Shown here piece after piece: positions 10,347-59,639 of a stretch of DNA of 64,000 nt; position 1 is the stretch's first letter; every line of letters begins with the position of its first letter. The notes under the pieces are model-generated. The model saw nothing but the letters and a program-made list of their open reading frames with translations, searched no databases and had not been told where the DNA came from. The translations under genes and the position numbers were made by a program. Source of the stretch: Nocardioides sambongensis (GTDB lineage Bacteria; Actinomycetota; Actinomycetes; Propionibacteriales; Nocardioidaceae); NCBI RefSeq assembly GCF_006494815.1, contig NZ_CP041091.1, positions 124,001 through 188,000 on the forward strand. The letters run 5' to 3'.

Positions 10347-11521
10347 CCGCCGCCGATCTCCGTGAGCGGGTCGAGCGGCTGCTCGCCGAGCACGACCCCG
10401 CCACCACCGACCGTCTCGACTTCCTCCGCGCCCGGTACGACGCCGGGCTGGCCTGGGTGTGGTTCCCCGAGGGCCTCGGCGGACTCGGGCTCGCCCGCGG
10501 CGACCAGGGCCCCGTCGACGCGCTGCTGGCGGAGGCCGGCGCCCCCGGCAACCACCCCGAGCGCAACGGGATCGGCCTGGGCATGGCCGCCCCGACCATC
10601 CTGCGGTTCGGCACCGAGGAGCAGAAGAAGCGCTTCCTGCGACCGCTGTGGACCGGCGAGGAGATCTGGTGCCAGCTCTTCTCCGAGCCCGGCGCCGGAT
10701 CGGACCTGGCCGGGCTGGCCACCCGGGCCGTGCCGGACGGCGACGGGTGGGTGGTCAACGGGCAGAAGGTGTGGACCTCGGGGGCGCACAACGCCCAGCT
10801 CGCGATCCTGGTCGCCCGCACCGACCCGGACGCGCCGAAGCACCGGGGGCTGACCTACTTCCTCTGCGACATGACCGACCCCGGGGTCGAGGTGCGTCCG
10901 CTGCGCCAGATCACCGGCGAGGCCGAGTTCAACGAGGTCTTCCTCAACGACGTGCGGATCCCCGACAGCCAGCGGCTCGGCGAGGTCGGGCAGGGGTGGC
11001 TGGTGGCCGCCGCCACCCTGGACAACGAGCGGGTGGCGATCGGTGGCGCGGCAGCGCCGCGGGAGGCCGGGATGATCGGGAAGGTCGCCCGGACCTGGCG
11101 CGAGCGGCCCGAGCTGCGCACCACGGGCGTGCACCAGCAGCTGGTCGAGTCGTGGGTCGACGCCGAGGTGGCCCGGGTCACCGGCGTGCGCCTGCGCCAG
11201 AAGCTCGCCCAGGGACAACCCGGTCCGGAGGGGTCGGCGATGAAGCTGGTCTTCGCCGGTCTCGCCCAACGGCTCTCCGGCTTGGAGCTCGAGCTGCTCG
11301 CCGAGGACGGCCTGCGCTACTCCGACTGGACCATGGTCCGACCCGACCGGGTCGACTTCACCGGCCGCGACGCCGGTTACCGCTACCTGCGCGCGAAGGG
11401 GAACTCCATCGAGGGCGGCACCTCGGAGATCCTGCGCAACGTCATCGCCGAACGCGTCCTCGGCCTCCCCGGTGAGCACCGGGTGGACAAGGACGTGCCG
11501 TGGAAGGAGATCCCGCGATGA
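10343..11521 (+). CDS. Acyl-CoA dehydrogenase, catalytic subunit of a probable heteromer
   Basis: A 392-residue dehydrogenase with the FAD motif LFSEPGAGSDLAGL and the active-site loop SIEGGTSEILRN near the C-terminus, which supplies the catalytic Glu. ATG 10343 overlaps the upstream stop and its own stop overlaps the next dehydrogenase (ATGA). Size, order and pairing match the FadE alpha2-beta2 heterotetramers of actinobacterial steroid side-chain degradation (ChsE-type), in which one subunit has the base and the other does not. Confidence 0.88.
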   Translation: MTAADLRERVERLLAEHDPATTDRLDFLRARYDAGLAWVWFPEGLGGLGLARGDQGPVDALLAEAGAPGNHPERNGIGLGMAAPTILRFGTEEQKKRFLRPLWTGEEIWCQLFSEPGAGSDLAGLATRAVPDGDGWVVNGQKVWTSGAHNAQLAILVARTDPDAPKHRGLTYFLCDMTDPGVEVRPLRQITGEAEFNEVFLNDVRIPDSQRLGEVGQGWLVAAATLDNERVAIGGAAAPREAGMIGKVARTWRERPELRTTGVHQQLVESWVDAEVARVTGVRLRQKLAQGQPGPEGSAMKLVFAGLAQRLSGLELELLAEDGLRYSDWTMVRPDRVDFTGRDAGYRYLRAKGNSIEGGTSEILRNVIAERVLGLPGEHRVDKDVPWKEIPR

Positions 11522-25581: not shown

Positions 25582-25668
25582 GGTGCGGGTTTCACCGGCT
25601 GGCCGGTGAAACCCGCACGACACGCCGAGGCGCACCGGCGTGTCGTGCGGGTTTCGGCCGACAGGTTC
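25582..25668 (+). repeat. 87-bp palindromic repeat, copy 1 (solitary)
   Basis: An 87-bp element that can form two mutually exclusive hairpins. Stem 1: 25583-25599 with 25602-25618, 17 perfect pairs. Stem 2: arm GAAACCCGCACGACACGCCG (25608-25627) with its exact complement at 25636-25655, 8-nt loop. The arms of the two stems overlap at 25608-25618. The same element recurs at 35019-35105 and, inverted, at 36187-36273. This copy lies just after the groEL terminator, between convergent genes, with no gene of its own. Confidence 0.92.
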
Positions 25669-33910: not shown

Positions 33911-35017
33911 GTGACGGACTTCGAGATCGGCCGTGCCAAGCGCGCCCGCCGGGCGTACTCCTTCGACGACATCGCGATCGTCCCCTCGCGGCGCACCCGC
34001 GACCCGGAGGAAGTCAGCACCGACTGGCAGATCGACGCCTACCGTTTCTCGCTGCCGATCGTGGCGGCGCCGATGGACTCGGTGATGTCGCCCGACACGG
34101 CGATCGCGATCGGCCGGTACGGCGGGCTCGGCGTACTGAACCTCGAGGGCCTCTGGACCCGCTACGAGGACCCGGAGCCGCTGCTGGCCGAGGTCGCCGG
34201 ACTGGATGGCGTCGCCGGTACCCGGCGACTGCAGGAGATCTACACCGCGCCGATCCGGGCCGAGCTGATCACCGAACGGGTCCGCCAGATCCGTGAGGCC
34301 GGGGTGACCGTGGCCGGATCGCTGTCCCCGCAGCGGACCAAGGAGTTCGCGAAGGCGGTCGTGGACGCCGGCGTCGACATGTTCGTCATCCGCGGCACCA
34401 CCGTCTCCGCAGAGCACGTCTCCAGCCAGTCCGAGCCGCTGAACCTCAAGGAGTTCATCTACGAGCTCGACGTGCCGGTGATCGTCGGCGGCTGCGCCAC
34501 CCACACTGCGGCGCTGCACCTGATGCGAACCGGCGCGGCCGGGGTGCTGGTCGGGTTCGGCGGCGGCGCCGCGCACACCACCCGCACCGTGCTCGGCGTG
34601 GCGGTGCCGATGGCGTCCGCGGTCGCCGACGTGGCCGCCGCACGCCGCGACTACCTCGACGAGTCCGGTGGCCGCTACGTCCACGTCATCGCCGACGGCT
34701 CGATCGGCACGTCGGGCGACGTGGCCAAGGCGATCGCCTGCGGCGCCGACGCCGTGATGGTCGGCTCGCCCTTCGCCCGCGCCACCGACGCCCCCGGCCA
34801 CGGCTTCCACTGGGGCGCCGAAGCGCACCACGCCGACCTGCCCCGCGGCAAGCGGGTCCAGTTCGACCAGGTCGGCACCATCGAGGAGATCCTCTTCGGA
34901 CCCTCGCGGGTCGCCGACGGCACGATGAACCTGGTCGGTGCGCTGCGGCGCTCGATGGCCACCACGGGCTACACCGAGCTCAAGGAGTTCCAGCGGGTCG
35001 AGGTCGTCACGGCCTGA
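33911..35017 (+). CDS. guaB3: GuaB3-family IMP dehydrogenase-related protein
   Basis: 368 residues. It has the IMPDH barrel but no CBS domains. The loop corresponding to [11 protein letters not shown] reads GFGGGAAHTTR, so the catalytic Cys is replaced by His. This family is conserved next to guaB in actinobacteria; its activity there is not settled, and it may be regulatory. The stop at 35015-35017 lies one base before the left 87-bp repeat. Confidence 0.9.
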   Translation: MTDFEIGRAKRARRAYSFDDIAIVPSRRTRDPEEVSTDWQIDAYRFSLPIVAAPMDSVMSPDTAIAIGRYGGLGVLNLEGLWTRYEDPEPLLAEVAGLDGVAGTRRLQEIYTAPIRAELITERVRQIREAGVTVAGSLSPQRTKEFAKAVVDAGVDMFVIRGTTVSAEHVSSQSEPLNLKEFIYELDVPVIVGGCATHTAALHLMRTGAAGVLVGFGGGAAHTTRTVLGVAVPMASAVADVAAARRDYLDESGGRYVHVIADGSIGTSGDVAKAIACGADAVMVGSPFARATDAPGHGFHWGAEAHHADLPRGKRVQFDQVGTIEEILFGPSRVADGTMNLVGALRRSMATTGYTELKEFQRVEVVTA

Positions 35018-35018
35018 A

Positions 35019-35105
35019 GGTGCGGGTTTCCCCGGTCAGCCGGTGAAACCCGCACGACACGCCGTGCGCCATCGGCGTGTCGTGCGGGTTTCGGCTGACA
35101 GGTTC
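35019..35105 (+). repeat. 87-bp palindromic repeat, copy 2 (left flank of the nuclease-like gene)
   Basis: Same orientation as copy 1 and the same length without gaps; about 10 differences from it, nearly all in the tip of stem 1 and the 8-nt loop of stem 2. The 20-bp arms of stem 2 (35045-35064 and 35073-35092) are identical to copy 1. It begins 1 nt after the guaB3 stop and ends 5 nt before the stop of the minus-strand nuclease-like gene. Confidence 0.93.
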
Positions 35106-35110
35106 CCCAC

Positions 35111-36061
35111 TCAGGCGGCTCGCCGTCCCGCTGCCATCGCCCGGTGGATGCGGCCGACCGTCGCCGTCGGCCGGAACAGGTCGGCCCAGACGATCCGGAT
35201 GCAGCGCCATCCGGTGAGCTCGCGCACCAGGTCCTCGCGCGCCTTCTCCCGCAGTACGGCGTCAGCCACCGACTCCCCGTCGCGCCGGTGACGTTCGTAC
35301 TTGGCGCGGCCGTCGAACTCCATGAACAGGCCGAGCTCGGGCCAGGCGAAGTCCAGCCGCGCGACGATCCGGCCGTGCCGGTCGCGCACCTCGTACTGCA
35401 GCTCGGGCCTCGGCAGGTGGCCGGTCCAGCACAGGTGCAGCGCCAGCGACTCCCCGGCGGACTCGCAACGCCTGTCGGCGAGCGCCAGCACCACGGGCGT
35501 CGCCAGGGTGTGCGGATCGTGCCGCATGCCCCGAACCCGCCGCTCGAGGTCCTCCATCGTGGTCTCGCCGGCATGGAGCAGGCCGTTCACCGTGACCAGC
35601 GCGTGAGGTACGTCGGCGAGGGCGATCATGTCGAGTGCCGTCCGCGTGCCGCTCGTCAGCGGGATGCCGTTGCGGACAGTGATGTCCTCGGCGACGAACG
35701 CCGGGCGATGCTGCGTCATCGCCTCGGAGCTGCGCCCCGCCCGCCGATCGACCCGCGCAAGGTGCACCTTCGAGCCCATGTCCCACACCGGGACGTCGTA
35801 CTGGTCGGCGGCGCTCGGTCCGGCGAGTACGACGTGCTGCTTCGCCCGGCGTAGGGCCGCGAGGGCCTGAGCGCGCCGGCGGCCGGGTTCGGATAGGCCG
35901 TCCCAGTGGTCGGTCGGCAGGTAGGCGCCGTGGCCGATGCGGCGTAGCACGCGACGGTCAACGAGGCGACGGATGGCGCGGTCGTCGTAGCCGGAGGCGA
36001 TGAGCTCGTGGGTCATCAGGAGGTGGTCGTGGCGCAGGTCGATGGTCGAGAAGAGTGTCAT
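35111..36061 (-). CDS. AbiEi-like wHTH plus DUF559/Vsr-like nuclease-fold protein
   Basis: 316 residues from ATG 36061 (MTLFSTIDLR); an in-frame ATG at 36145 would add 28 residues without recognisable content. The N-terminus (about 10-50: THELIASGYDDRAIRRLV; GAYLP) is the winged helix of AbiEi antitoxins. The C-terminus has a restriction-endonuclease-like core: Asp237 in LDFAWPELG, Glu248 in MEFDGRAKY, then GWRCIRI. No AbiEii toxin gene is adjacent. The gene lies between inverted copies of the 87-bp repeat, suggesting it is part of a mobile or repeat-associated unit. Biochemical function unknown. Confidence 0.78.
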   Translation of the reverse strand: MTLFSTIDLRHDHLLMTHELIASGYDDRAIRRLVDRRVLRRIGHGAYLPTDHWDGLSEPGRRRAQALAALRRAKQHVVLAGPSAADQYDVPVWDMGSKVHLARVDRRAGRSSEAMTQHRPAFVAEDITVRNGIPLTSGTRTALDMIALADVPHALVTVNGLLHAGETTMEDLERRVRGMRHDPHTLATPVVLALADRRCESAGESLALHLCWTGHLPRPELQYEVRDRHGRIVARLDFAWPELGLFMEFDGRAKYERHRRDGESVADAVLREKAREDLVRELTGWRCIRIVWADLFRPTATVGRIHRAMAAGRRAA

Positions 36062-36186
36062 GCAGTTGGCCTCACCGAGGGGCGAGCGGCGAACCGGGGC
36101 CCGCGGCGCCCTGTGGATGGCCGGGCGTTCGGGGCCGCTGTGCACGGTGTCGGGGCCGATCTGGGGCGATCTGGCGCGAGGGCGGT

Positions 36187-36273
36187 GAACTTGTCGGCCG
36201 AAACCCGCACGACACGCCGGTGCTTCACGGCGTGTCGTGCGGGTTTCCCCGGTCAGCCGGTGAAACCCGCACC
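36187..36273 (-). repeat. 87-bp palindromic repeat, copy 3 (inverted, right flank of the nuclease-like gene)
   Basis: Reverse complement of the copy 1/2 layout, gap-free, with about 6 differences from copy 1. Stem 2 arms 36200-36219 and 36228-36247 are again identical to the other copies. With copy 2 it forms an inverted pair around the gene at 35111-36061; it lies 126 nt upstream of that gene's start. Confidence 0.93.
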
Positions 36274-54715: not shown

Positions 54716-55880
54716 ATGACGCTCCAGATCCCCACCCCCACCCCGCCGACAAGTTCTCCTTCGGTCTGTGGACCGTCGGCTGGCAGGGGCGCGACCCGTT
54801 CGGCGAGGCCACCCGGCCCGCGATGGACCCGGTCCACGCGCTCACCAAGCTCGCCGAGATCGGCTCCTACGGCGTCAACTTCCACGACGACGACCTGATC
54901 CCGTTCGGCAGCGACGACGCGACCCGCGACGGGATCGTCGAGCGGTTCAAGAAGGGGCTGGCCGAGACCGGCCTGGTGGTCACCACGGCGACCACCAACC
55001 TCTTCACCCACCCGGTCTTCAAGTCCGGCGCGCTCACCAACAACGACCGTGAGATCCGCCGCTTCGCGCTGCGCAAGGTGATCCGCAACATCGACCTCGC
55101 CGCCGAGCTCGGCGCGAAGGTCTACGTCTGCTGGGGCGGCCGCGAGGGCGCGGAGTACGGCGCCTCCCAGGGCACCGCCGAGGCCCTGGACCGCTACCAG
55201 GAGGCCTTCAACCTGCTCGGTGAGTACGTCACCGAGGCCGGCTACGACATGCGCTTCGCGATCGAGCCCAAGCCGAACGAGCCCCGCGGCGACATCCTGC
55301 TGCCGACCATCGGGCACGCGCTGGCGTTCATCGAGACCCTCGACCGTCCGGAGCTGGTCGGCGTCAACCCGGAGATCGGCCACGAGGAGATGGCGGGGGT
55401 GAACGCCGCCGCCGGCTACGCCCAGGCGCTGTGGCAGGGCAAGCTCTTCCACATCGACCTCAACGGCCAGAACGGCCCTCGGTACGACCAGGACCTGCGG
55501 TTCGGCGCCGGCAACGTGCGGGGCGCGTTCTGGGTGGTCGACACCCTGCTGGCCGGCGGCTACGACGGACCGGTGCACTTCGACTTCAAGCCCGCCCGGA
55601 CCGAGGGCGAGGACGGCGTGTGGGCCTCGGCCAAGGCCTGCATCGACAACTACCTGATCCTGCGGGAGAAGGCGAAGGCCTTCCGTGCCGACCCCGAGGT
55701 CCAGGCCGCGCTCGAGGCCGCCAAGGTCCCGAGCTCGCCGTGCCCACCCTGGCCGAGGGGGAGGGGTGGCGACAGCTGCTCGACGCGGCCCCGGAGGACC
55801 CCGAGGCGCTGGCCGAGCGCGGCGGCGCGTTCGAGGCGCTCGACCAGCTCGCGCTGGAGCACCTCTACGGCGTGCGCTGA
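54716..55880 (+). CDS. xylA: Xylose isomerase, two frameshifts
   Basis: 388 residues after restoring two single G losses, near 54745 (giving [15 protein letters not shown]) and near 55730 (giving [13 protein letters not shown]). Metal and substrate residues are intact: [10 protein letters not shown] with the catalytic His, [32 protein letters not shown] and FDFKPAR. CGGAGG precedes ATG 54716. It converts D-xylose to D-xylulose. Both breaks sit next to G or C runs, pointing to consensus errors. Confidence 0.9.
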
Positions 55881-55905
55881 CCCGCGTCCTGACCGGGACA
55901 GAGCA

Positions 55906-57117
55906 GTGACCGACCCCTTCGCCGGGCCCGCCGGCGCCGAGCAGGTACGACGGCGCAACACCGCCACCGTGCTCCGCTCGTTGCGCGAGGCCGGCCCGGC
56001 GAGCCGGGTCGAGCTCGCTGCCCGCACCGGGCTGGCCAAGGCGACGGTCGGCACCATCGTCGGCGCGCTGGAGGAGGGCGAGGTGGTGCGCCTGCACGAG
56101 CAGGTGCGCAGCGGCGACCGGGGCCGACCCGCCTCCCGGGTCACCCTGGCCGGCTCCCGGCCGGTCGGGATCGGCCTCGAGATCAACGTGGAGCACGTCG
56201 CCGCGGTCGCGGTCGACCTCGGCGGCGGCGTCCGGTTGCGGCGCACCCGCGCGGTGCCCCGCCCGGAGGAGGCTTCCCGGCTGCTGGTGCAGGTGGCCGA
56301 GGAGGTGGCCGGGCTGCTCGCCGAGCACGGCCTGCGCGCCGTCGGCGCCACCGTCGCCGTGCCCGGACTGATCGAGGCCGACGAGCGGACCGTCGCCTGG
56401 ACCCCGAACCTGCCGCTGGCCGAGGCGAGCCTCGCCGAGCAGGTCGACGCGGTGTTCGGCTGGCGGCGGCGGGTGCGGATCAGCAACGACGCGGACTGCG
56501 GGGCCCTGGCCGAGCTGCACCACGGCGCCGGACGAGGCAGCCGGCACCTGCTCTACCTGACCGGCGACGTCGGCATCGGTGCCGGCGTGGTGGCCGACGC
56601 CCGGCTGATGCGCGGCGCCTCCGGGTTCGCCGGTGAGGTGGGACACCTGCCGCTGGGCGCCTCCGAGGCCCGCTGCGGCTGCGGTCGGCACGGCTGCTGG
56701 GAGGCGTCGGTGGGCCTGCACGCCCTGCTCGAGCGGGTCGGCCTGCCCCGCACCGGCACCGCCGCCGGCACCGCCGCCGCCGTCGCCGACCGGGCGCGCA
56801 CCGACGCCGCCGCGCGGGCCGGGATCGCCGACCTCGGCCGCTGGCTGGGGCACGGCCTCGGTGTGGTCTGCGGGGTGCTCGACCCGGGTCTGGTGGTGTT
56901 GGGCGGCTACTTCCAGCCGCTGGGGGTGCTGGTGCTCGACCCGGCACGGGCGGCCCTCGCCGCGACGGTCGCCTCGCCCGCCCAACCCGTTCCCGAGCTC
57001 CGCGTGGGGGAGCTCGGGCCGGAGGCGGCCGCGCTCGGTGCGGCCGAGAGGGCGGTGGCCGACGTGCTCGACGGCAGCACCGAGATCGACCTGGCGGAGC
57101 CGGCGTCCCCCGCCTGA
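55906..57117 (+). CDS. xylR: ROK-family transcriptional regulator, probable xylose repressor
   Basis: 403 residues from GTG 55906. N-terminal winged helix (about 15-70; [20 protein letters not shown]), then a sugar-kinase-like ROK domain with the zinc motif [10 protein letters not shown] and EVGH. Its place directly after xylA suggests it senses xylose and represses the xyl genes. The GTG falls 26 nt after the xylA stop. Confidence 0.87.
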
Positions 57118-57133
57118 CCGGTCGGGCGGGGGC

Positions 57134-58354
57134 TCAGCCGACCATCCGCGTCGGGGCGTCCTTGATCGCCGTGGCCAGGCTCGCCACCGGGTCGGTGAGC
57201 AACGGGTCGAGGGCCACCTCCGCCGCGCCCAGCAGCACCGAGTCGGTGCCCAGGCCGGGCTCGGCCAGCCGCAGCGACTCCAGCGCGGGTGCCATCGCCC
57301 GCTCGCTCAGGCCGGCCGCGATCTCGGCGCGCAGCAGGCGGTGCAGCGGCTGGAAGTAGCCGCCCAGGATCACCACCGTGGGGTTGAACGCGTTGACCAC
57401 CGCGGACAGGCCGCGGCCCAGGTTGGTGGCGATCGGTCGCAGCGCGCGGGGCGGGGTCGTGTAGCCGTCGAGCTCCTCGCCCAGCCGGACCGCCTGGTCC
57501 GTGGCGAGGCCGATCGCCTTGGCGATCGCCGGCGCTCCGACCACCGTCTCCCAGCACCCGCGGCTGCCGCAGTGGCAGGCGGCACCGTTGGGGTCGAAGC
57601 TGAGGTGGCCGATCTCGCCGGCGTAGCCACCGGCGCCGAGGATCCGGGCACCGCCGGTGATCACCCCGGCACCGACGCCGACGTTGCCGGAGATGTAGAT
57701 GATGTCGTCGACGCCCTCGCCGACCCCCCGGCGGTGCTCGGCCAGCGCGCCGAGGTCGGCGTCGTTGCCCAGCGTCACGGGGACGTCGAGGCCGAGGGCC
57801 GCGAGCAGGATCGAGGCGAACGAGACGTCGGTCCAGCCGAGGTTGGGTGCCTGGCGGATCAGGCCGTCGCTGCGTCGTACCAGACCGGGGACGGCGACGC
57901 CGATGCCGAGCAGCGAGGCGTTGTCCGGCGCCAGGCCCGCGACGTGGCGGACCAGGCGGGCGACGGCCGCGCCCACCTGCCACGCCTCCGCCTGCGGCTC
58001 GATGGTGGCCTCGGCCCGCTCGAAGACCTGGTCGCCCAGGCCCACCCGGGCCACCACCGCCCGGTCCACGCCCAGGTCGACGGCGATCACGTAGGGGCCG
58101 TCGGACGCGTGCACCGCGGCCGACGGCCTCCCTGCCGTACGACGCTCGCCGGTCGCGGCGCCCTGCTCGATCAACCCCAGGCTCTCCAGCTCGCTGGCCA
58201 GCGCTCCGATGGTGCTGCGGTTGAGCCCCATCAGCGTGGTCAGCTCGGCCCGCGAGATCTCCCCGGTCCGGTGGACGTGCCGCAGCAGCGTCCCGAGATT
58301 GTGGCGGCGCACCCCCTCCTGGTTGGTGCCGGCGCCGCGCCGTGGGCTCGTCAT
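57134..58354 (-). CDS. ROK-family transcriptional regulator (second xyl regulator)
   Basis: 406 residues from ATG 58354 (MTSPRRGAG); an earlier in-frame start at 58435 overlaps the permease gene. Winged helix SRAELTTLMGLNRSTIGALA, then the ROK domain with EIGHLSF and the zinc motif CHCGSRGCWE. It is downstream of xylH on the minus strand and convergent with xylR, so two ROK repressors serve one locus, perhaps one for catabolism and one for transport. Confidence 0.87.
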   Translation of the reverse strand: MTSPRRGAGTNQEGVRRHNLGTLLRHVHRTGEISRAELTTLMGLNRSTIGALASELESLGLIEQGAATGERRTAGRPSAAVHASDGPYVIAVDLGVDRAVVARVGLGDQVFERAEATIEPQAEAWQVGAAVARLVRHVAGLAPDNASLLGIGVAVPGLVRRSDGLIRQAPNLGWTDVSFASILLAALGLDVPVTLGNDADLGALAEHRRGVGEGVDDIIYISGNVGVGAGVITGGARILGAGGYAGEIGHLSFDPNGAACHCGSRGCWETVVGAPAIAKAIGLATDQAVRLGEELDGYTTPPRALRPIATNLGRGLSAVVNAFNPTVVILGGYFQPLHRLLRAEIAAGLSERAMAPALESLRLAEPGLGTDSVLLGAAEVALDPLLTDPVASLATAIKDAPTRMVG

Positions 58355-58364
58355 GGGCGTGGCG

Positions 58365-59639
58365 TCACACGCCGGAGCTGGAGCGCCGGCGTCGGGAGAT
58401 CGCGTCCACGCTGGCGGCGAGCAGGAGCACGCCACCGGTGACCAGGAAGTTGATGTAGCTGGCCTGGTTGAGCAGTCCGAGCCCGTTCGGGATGGTCGCG
58501 ATGACCAGTCCGCCGATCACGCCGTTGATGGCCCGGCCGCGACCGCCGAAGAGGCTGGTGCCGCCGATGACGGCGGCGCCGACCGCGTAGAGCAGCTCGT
58601 TGCCGCCACCGGAGCCGGGGGAGACCTTGCCGGTGTAGGAGGCCGCCAGCAGTCCGCTGATCGCCGCCATGCTGGAGCAGATCACGAACGCGGTGACCTT
58701 CATCCCGGTGACGTTGATGCCGGCCCGTCGGGCGGCCTCGGCGTTGCCGCCGACGGCGTAGAGGTGGCGACCGAAGCGGGTCCGGTTGAGCACGAACGTC
58801 CACCACAGCAGCAGCACGATCACCACGGGTGCCACCCACGGGATGCCCTCGATCGTGAAGATCTCGGGGTTGGGGGCGCGGTTCTGGCTGAGCAGCGCGG
58901 TGAGGCCGAGGATCACCACGGCCATCGCGGCGATCTTGATCACCAGCAGCGACAGCGGCTGGTGCACCAGGCCCTTGCTGACCTGGCTGCGGTGGCGCCA
59001 CAGGCTGAGCACGGCGAACCCGAGCACGATCGCGATCGCCGCGATCCAGCCCGCTGTCACCGGGACGTTCTTGATCGACAGCCCGCGCAGCACCTCGTCG
59101 TTGAACCGCAGCGATCCGCCGGAGCCGATCAGCTTCAGCGGCACCGCCTGCAGGGCGAGGAAGAACGCGAGGGTGACCACGAAGGACGGGATGCCCAGGA
59201 AGGAGACCAGCAGGCCGATCACCAACCCGATCACGGCGCCGGTGGCGATGCCGGCGAGGGTCGCCAGCCACCAGGTCCAGTCGTAGTCGATCAGCATCAG
59301 CGCGATGATCGTGGCGGAGGCGCCGCCGGCGACACCGGCGGAGAGGTCGATCTCGCCCAGCAGCAGCACGAAGATCAGGCCCATCGCCAGGACGCAGATC
59401 GAGCCGGCCTGGATGACCAGGTTGGCCATGTTGTAGGTGGTCAGGAAGTTGTCGTGCAGCGAGGAGAAGACGACGAAGAGGAAGATCAGGCCGAGGATGG
59501 CGGGCAGCGAGCCCATGTCGCCGCCGCGCAGGCGGTTCAGGTACGCCGAGACCGCGTCGCCGAGGGTGGCGCTCTGCTGGCTGTCGCCGTGGAACTCGCC
59601 GTCGGCCAGGGTGGGCATGGAGTCTGATTCAACAGTCAT
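58365..59639 (-). CDS. xylH: Xylose-type sugar ABC permease
   Basis: 424 residues. About ten membrane helices, with GEIDLSAGVAGGASA and the coupling loop VGGNAEAARRAGINVTGMK characteristic of XylH/RbsC permeases, and GGTSLFGGRGRA. ATG 59639 lies 14 nt after the ATPase gene stop. With XylG and XylF it imports xylose or a similar pentose. Confidence 0.9.
   Translation of the reverse strand: MTVESDSMPTLADGEFHGDSQQSATLGDAVSAYLNRLRGGDMGSLPAILGLIFLFVVFSSLHDNFLTTYNMANLVIQAGSICVLAMGLIFVLLLGEIDLSAGVAGGASATIIALMLIDYDWTWWLATLAGIATGAVIGLVIGLLVSFLGIPSFVVTLAFFLALQAVPLKLIGSGGSLRFNDEVLRGLSIKNVPVTAGWIAAIAIVLGFAVLSLWRHRSQVSKGLVHQPLSLLVIKIAAMAVVILGLTALLSQNRAPNPEIFTIEGIPWVAPVVIVLLLWWTFVLNRTRFGRHLYAVGGNAEAARRAGINVTGMKVTAFVICSSMAAISGLLAASYTGKVSPGSGGGNELLYAVGAAVIGGTSLFGGRGRAINGVIGGLVIATIPNGLGLLNQASYINFLVTGGVLLLAASVDAISRRRRSSSGV

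Follow-up and report, generated by a model that had tools for sequence, protein, structure and literature searches.

The DNA analyzed here is a stretch of 64,000 nucleotides from the genome of Nocardioides sambongensis (contig NZ_CP041091.1, positions 124,001 to 188,000 of the forward strand), and we refer to this whole stretch as the window. In the window we studied a unit of 1255 bp (35019..36273), in which a single nuclease-like gene lies between two inverted copies of an 87-bp hairpin repeat. These features, together with a solitary copy of the same repeat, are as follows.

35019-35105, plus strand: copy 2, the 3'-side repeat, with palindrome P1 at 35020-35055, hairpin P2 at 35045-35092 and a tail at 35093-35105 that faces the gene.
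35111-36061, minus strand: nuclease-like gene for a 316-aa protein with an AbiEi-like part and a Vsr-like nuclease-fold domain.
36187-36273, minus strand: copy 3, the 5'-side repeat, inverted relative to copy 2, with P1 at 36237-36272, P2 at 36200-36247 and a tail at 36187-36199 that faces the gene.
25582-25668, plus strand: copy 1, a solitary copy of the same repeat and one of the 28 copies outside the unit in the genome.

The stop codon of guaB3 lies at 35017, and copy 2 starts 1 nt later. The gap between the end of copy 2 and the stop codon of the nuclease gene (35111) is 5 nt, and 126 nt separate the ATG of the gene (36061) from copy 3, which lies upstream of it. The original prediction, which was made from the letters of the window, had given the same coordinates and strands for the three repeats and the same spacing to guaB3 and the nuclease gene, and all of these were confirmed. 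It had counted three copies, but our search of the complete genome (4.43 Mb, hereafter G000) found 30. The inverted arms around the gene are 99 nt each, 83% complementary and 1057 nt apart. The inverted-match score of the unit was 64, and the 99th percentile of 820 random placements with the same geometry within the window was 20. The sole strong control peak in the window (three placements at 52, and 63 in a regular scan) came from a pair of ROK-family genes.

A homologue of the nuclease-like gene was present at E 1e-20 in 161 of 196 sampled genomes of the same genus. To obtain the framing score of a locus, we compared the 350 nt preceding the matched gene with the 300 nt following it and took the best inverted match. 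This score was at least 27 in all 49 same-genus homologues examined (the 29 best matches and 20 taken down the ranking). It was at least 24 at 77 of 80 named Nocardioidaceae loci, but at none of 155 offset controls; these loci are the best 80 of 509, and 14 of the 49 same-genus homologues recur among them. The three misses include L237, which lies at a contig edge. In the usual layout P1 is outside and the tail inside, the 3' repeat is often no more than about 10 nt from the stop codon, and the 5' repeat is mostly 100-180 nt upstream of the matched gene. These results indicate that inverted framing is a property of the gene family.

A phylum-wide search at E 1e-20 matched 57 of 396 genomes and 41 of 237 genera. 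From the matches listed we scored 29 loci, that is, one same-family locus and 28 more distant ones, with wider flanks and with plain shuffling as the control, of which the maximum was 13-19. The score was at least 24 at 15 of the 29 loci, and the repeats there were unlike the Nocardioides ones. G000 itself holds two distant paralogues of the gene, L029 and L030, with scores of 34 and 20, respectively. These paralogues (33% and 27% identity) adjoin another repeat family, arrays of CCGCCGAG.GGTC, which is perhaps a second repeat system. The sites of this second family are G000:C1:1096460-1097982 and 1064216-1064320 (L029, L030, L295, L300 and L301), and there are weaker matches elsewhere.

The 87-nt repeat is composed of the outer palindrome P1, the hairpin P2, which shares one arm of P1, and the tail toward the gene. 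When copies 1-3 were folded as single-stranded DNA, the z values against shuffles were -9.7, -7.1 and -6.0. We also aligned 39 repeats, namely the 5' repeat of the window unit and 38 of 44 upstream repeats preselected by score and length. Two-sided changes occurred in all 23 P1/P2 pairs of this alignment, and 85.5% of the cells were paired as compared with 31-46% when the partner was slid, although the P1/P2 structure was taken from the same alignment as the pairing counts, which favours high pairing. The tail can alternatively pair with the 5' arm of P2 (74.8% vs 34-39%). These data indicate that the two-hairpin form of the repeat is maintained by compensatory change, and the pairing pattern would fit a hairpin or a palindromic duplex site alike. 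Chance palindromes are ruled out by the random placements, the offset controls and the slid-partner pairing.

The 30 copies in G000 include one fragment with P1 only and a few rearranged or compound copies. Compound copies aside, the framed nuclease gene is the only place in G000 where neighbouring copies are less than 5 kb apart. Eight of the 28 solitary copies begin no more than 5 nt past the stop codon of an open reading frame (ORF) on the same strand, and three of the 28 overlap an ORF, where ORFs were called by length and GC content at the third codon position only. After collapsing, sites more than 2 kb apart numbered 29 in G000, 35 in G110, 33 in G012 and 19 in G122. The chromosome half proximal to dnaA holds a significant excess of these sites in G000 (22 of 29), G110 (31 of 35) and G122 (15 of 19), and the excess is not significant in G012 (20 of 33). 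At G110:C1:2139509-2139915, three tandem repeat copies lie about 141 bp apart and are followed by a fragment.

The repeat of G110 was found at about 40 places in G110. Of 14 other genomes, four had a match to it, which covered no more than 68 of the 89 nt. The repeat of G012 was found at more than 30 places in G012 and matched G050, G122, G061 and G088 more weakly, and that of G122 recurred in its relatives G117 and G007. One repeat in another family was found at 21, 7 and 13 places in three genomes. All nine genomes for which the query was the genome's own repeat or that of a close relative had scattered copies. Five genomes without the protein (G023, G027, G036, G088 and G115) gave no match to the G110 repeat and one weak match (G088) to the G012 repeat; they are uninformative as a negative control, since protein-bearing genomes mostly lack foreign repeats too. 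The two repeats of one unit had a median match score of 50 (76 loci preselected at a score of at least 30). For different units in the same genome, the best cross-score was at most 24 in 11 of 14 pairs; in the remaining three it was 34-45, and the proteins of these pairs were 61-69% identical and belonged to one strain.

In the protein of the window unit, an AbiEi-like part with a winged helix and a middle module spans about residues 14-190, and the Vsr-like nuclease-fold domain spans about residues 195-316. Its AlphaFold2 model had a mean local confidence (pLDDT) of 92 and a predicted template-modelling score (pTM) of 0.89. In a Foldseek search the N-terminal half matched the AbiEi antitoxin 6y8q (E 1.3e-4) and then Rv2827c (1zel). 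The nuclease domain matched the catalytic domain of I-Bth0305I (3r3p; E 0.26, probability 0.99, template-modelling score 0.69 on the 98-residue target), and other shape matches were AbaSI (4par, E 0.18) and Vsr (1cw0, E 0.53; 1vsr, E 0.99), AbaSI being additionally a weak sequence match (E 0.6). Among 44 family sequences E204, D237, E248, D250 and K254 were invariant; D237 and E248 had been singled out in the original prediction, and E204 can be added to them. The catalytic fold and the conserved acidic residues would place the domain in the Vsr-like/EDxHD superfamily. AbiEi_4 was the sole Pfam family matched at E 0.01, by 35 of the 44 members; the window protein reached 23.9 bits, under the cut-off of 25. 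None of the 44 matched DUF559 at E 0.01, and for lack of a match we rejected DUF559 as a label for the nuclease domain. Thus, of the earlier description of the protein as an AbiEi-type winged helix plus a DUF559/Vsr-like core, the AbiEi part holds (AbiEi_4, 6y8q) and the Vsr-like core holds on the predicted fold, while DUF559 is not supported.

The ratio dN/dS (nonsynonymous to synonymous changes) was 0.07-0.18 in six pairs of relatives, which indicates that the nuclease-like protein is kept by purifying selection. In public records several family proteins are named 'type IV toxin-antitoxin system AbiEi family antitoxin domain-containing protein' or 'hypothetical', and one is named 'very-short-patch-repair endonuclease'. 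Such annotation conceals the system.

Over the 76 loci, protein identity was correlated with repeat similarity (Mantel r 0.54, 0 of 999 permutations). In partial Mantel tests the value of r was 0.51 for residues 61-190 and 0.16 for the winged helix (0 of 499 permutations each), and it was -0.06 for the nuclease domain (414 of 499), of which the simple r was 0.27; the nuclease domain, used as a yardstick, controls shared ancestry only in part. In protein pairs of less than 52% identity, the values were 0.42 for residues 61-190 vs 0.05 for the nuclease domain. As judged from these sequence correlations, the repeat type goes with the protein lineage, and repeat similarity tracks the AbiEi-like half, not the nuclease domain. 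The partial Mantel tests give no support to the nuclease part as the DNA reader.

We compared seven chosen sites (A-G) in the close-relative trio G122, G117 and G007. G117 lacks the repeat at sites A, B, D and G, where G122 and G007 have it. At site C the repeat is likewise present in G122 and G007, and the downstream sequence of G117 is not alignable. Site E has the repeat only in G117, G007 being not homologous downstream, and site F has it in all three genomes. The comparison indicates that close relatives differ in which of the matching sites carry a scattered copy. Two distant sites of G000 (L013 and L021) carry, by eye, the same compound copy of about 119 nt with different flanks.

The same APH-family gene has the unit on its upstream side in the four homologues that were closest among those found (G041, G038, G008 and G190), whereas the unit is absent there in G002, G187 and G124. 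The possibility, raised in the original prediction, that the unit is fixed and vertically inherited in all relatives is borne out for the former four genomes and fails for the latter three. Further empty sites were guessed from synteny, and two of the three queries had no match in the stretches examined; three stretches (L312-L314) were left out. An in-frame TGA in the homologue L041 is the normal end of that gene, which is thus not a broken copy. The nuclease gene itself looks mainly vertically inherited.

Three more repeat sites deserve a description. At about 1501-1585 of L131 (G117), and also in G122 and G007, a repeat lies inside an open frame (L131 799-2385) of which the second half is a chorismate-binding enzyme domain; this repeat may have become protein-coding. 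The same intergenic site holds, by eye, two different repeat families in G122 (L310 1504-1594) and G007 (L311, about 10710-10785), which hints at insertion hot spots. Near 2500 of L039/L044 (gene-oriented), G022 is about 650 bp longer than G012, and the extra sequence abuts the 3' repeat of the unit on its outer side.

Repetitive extragenic palindromes (REPs) are widespread bacterial repeats, and the HUH-type REP-associated tyrosine transposase (RAYT) is, to our knowledge, the only enzyme partner known for them. According to one report, RAYT genes always lie between two inverted REPs, in which complementary mutations are preserved (PMC2817692), and another describes RAYTs as single-copy and vertically inherited (PMC8049555). 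The present system resembles these in that two inverted repeats flank the gene and many solitary extragenic copies are found in the same genome. It differs in the protein, which has an AbiEi-like module and a Vsr-like nuclease fold in contrast to the HUH/Y1 enzyme, and in the repeat, which has two hairpins and about 80-100 nt whereas the RAYT systems have 20-40 nt with a GT(A/G)G head. A palindrome of 20-40 nt with such a head was not found here, no such end being conserved, by eye, in the consensus of the 39 repeats. We found the nuclease-framed repeats in Nocardioides and other Actinomycetota. The unit would work like a RAYT system and yet is no member of that class, because its enzyme is unrelated.

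Other known systems share parts of these features. The AbiEi antitoxins of type IV toxin-antitoxin systems, including Rv2827c, have the same N-terminal fold (6y8q, 1zel) and AbiEi_4, and AbiEi proteins are reported to bind inverted repeats (PMC7319586). Unlike them, the window protein has an added C-terminal nuclease-fold domain, its neighbours are not AbiEii toxin genes, and its repeats are two-sided and genome-scattered. The gene stands alone between the repeats, IMPDH (guaB3) and APH come next, and aldehyde dehydrogenase families lie farther on; that is, no AbiEii toxin gene lies beside it in the window, and on this ground we rejected a type IV toxin-antitoxin (AbiE) pair. I-Bth0305I, one of the EDxHD/Vsr-like homing endonucleases, is similar in its catalytic-domain fold and in the link between a nuclease and the persistence of a mobile sequence, but the sequence multiplied here is non-coding, a short palindrome with tens of copies, and not the nuclease gene at one target. 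CGTC-tagged REPs are reported to lack an association with transposase genes (PMC3733652). They are similar in being REP-like repeats without a transposase, and they differ in that our 39 aligned repeats have, by eye, no conserved CGTC end, nor a GTAG end. A classical DDE insertion sequence with terminal inverted repeats was rejected, given the Vsr-like fold, no DDE domain, and no target-site duplication in 20 copies. Among the titles and abstracts in the matches listed, with most subscription journals and all non-PMC bioRxiv papers outside the coverage, we found no publication that links the AbiEi-Vsr-type family to such repeats. The partnership of this nuclease and palindrome is likely, though not certainly, new to the literature.

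In our view the unit is probably a REP-like element in which an AbiEi-Vsr-type nuclease takes the place of the RAYT (HUH) transposase, and solitary copies of the repeat are spread over the genome. The original prediction had proposed a REP/RAYT-like unit with another protein, and this proposal is supported by the inverted pair being tied to the family (49/49; 77/80 vs 0/155). As to whether the repeats are equally common around unrelated genes, solitary copies do adjoin unrelated genes, which is also the case in genomes with RAYTs, but pairing in inverted orientation is tied to this gene family. We infer that the protein binds, cuts and mobilises the repeats. The AbiEi-like half (about residues 14-190) would recognise the repeat, a step supported by the covariation and by the fact that AbiEi proteins are known to bind inverted repeats. 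Because of its fold and invariant residues, the Vsr-like domain may nick or cut DNA at the repeat, perhaps at hairpins extruded in single-stranded DNA during replication. Repair or re-insertion would then yield new copies, mostly between genes; this spread is proposed because of the scattered copies and their presence or absence in relatives. A broader possibility is a phylum-wide REP-like class whose protein, an AbiEi-type reader joined to a Vsr-like nuclease, recognises the palindromes and propagates them through the copying of nicked hairpins by host repair; this seems to us an even bet.

Several points weigh against this interpretation. We know of no strand-transfer activity among Vsr-like enzymes, and insertion would therefore require a host step. 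Only 6y8q reaches a Foldseek E of 0.001, and the matches of the nuclease domain rest on probability and shape, none having E below 0.1. A small partial correlation with the repeat (0.16) persists in the last part of the nuclease domain (residues 261-316). The paralogue L030 in the window's own genome is under 24, as are 14 of the 29 loci in the phylum set. The polymorphic sites are not firmly polarised as gain or loss, because G122, G117 and G007 are nearly equidistant, and no movement was observed. The differing segment at these sites is, by eye, up to about 30 nt longer than the repeat, and exact insertion junctions are undefined because of drift and the extra bases. A target-site duplication, which the original prediction had also failed to see, was not found in 20 copies (1.65 vs a null of 1.37, reached by 72 of 500 shuffles). 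Finally, an HUH/Y1 domain was found neither in the 44 members (Pfam, E 0.01) nor in the predicted fold, but a genome search aimed at Y1 was not made.

This last point leaves room for a passenger role, in which a RAYT or an IS200/IS605-type transposase elsewhere moves the repeats and the nuclease gene merely lands on them. Y1 transposases were outside the scope of our genome searches, nothing shows the nuclease moving DNA, and Vsr-like nucleases are not known to us as DNA transposers. A passenger, however, would not be expected to match its repeat lineage by lineage, or to be framed by unlike repeat families across the phylum, and we think this explanation quite unlikely. The AbiEi-like half could also suggest autoregulation, that is, an AbiEi-type repressor for which the 5' repeat is the operator and the 3' repeat a terminator, the scattered copies being regulon sites or terminators spread otherwise. 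For AbiEi and Rv2827c, the reported binding sites are 23-bp inverted repeats within the promoters of their own genes (PMC7319586). The 5' repeat does sit in the upstream region of the gene, and the covariation of the AbiEi-like half with the repeat fits any DNA binding. For a repressor, in contrast, a nuclease fold with invariant acidic residues is unnecessary. The inverted 3' repeat is retained at nearly all loci, the eight solitary copies close to ORF stop codons are not in promoters, and repeat copies vary between close relatives, all of which make autoregulation unlikely.

The variation between relatives also speaks against defence or self-marking, in which the nuclease would attack incoming DNA and the chromosomal repeats would titrate it or mark self. 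AbiEi models among the PADLOC defence models match the N-terminal half (best E 5e-9), and the ZorE model weakly matches part of the nuclease domain (E 8.5e-4). This explanation, however, leaves the two-sided inverted framing unaccounted for, and the neighbours IMPDH, APH and aldehyde dehydrogenase, to which this check of the window was confined, are not known defence genes. We consider it very improbable.

With regard to the ROK-family control peak in the window (about 56.2-58.1 kb), the two genes (54823-58435) lie in opposite orientation, are 34% identical and form a long coding inverted repeat. The first ROK open frame also covers a xylose-isomerase-like domain, and it represents either two genes or a fusion.

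Taken together, the framed nuclease genes suggest that scattered palindromes in bacteria have a second kind of enzyme partner, unrelated to the first. If this is true, partnerships of REPs and enzymes may have arisen at least twice. Orphan REPs would gain a candidate partner, and the spread of REPs in the absence of RAYT would have a candidate answer. The family would also provide many naturally matched pairs of protein and DNA in which specificity could be studied, and bacteria would possess a transposase-free route for spreading short DNA.
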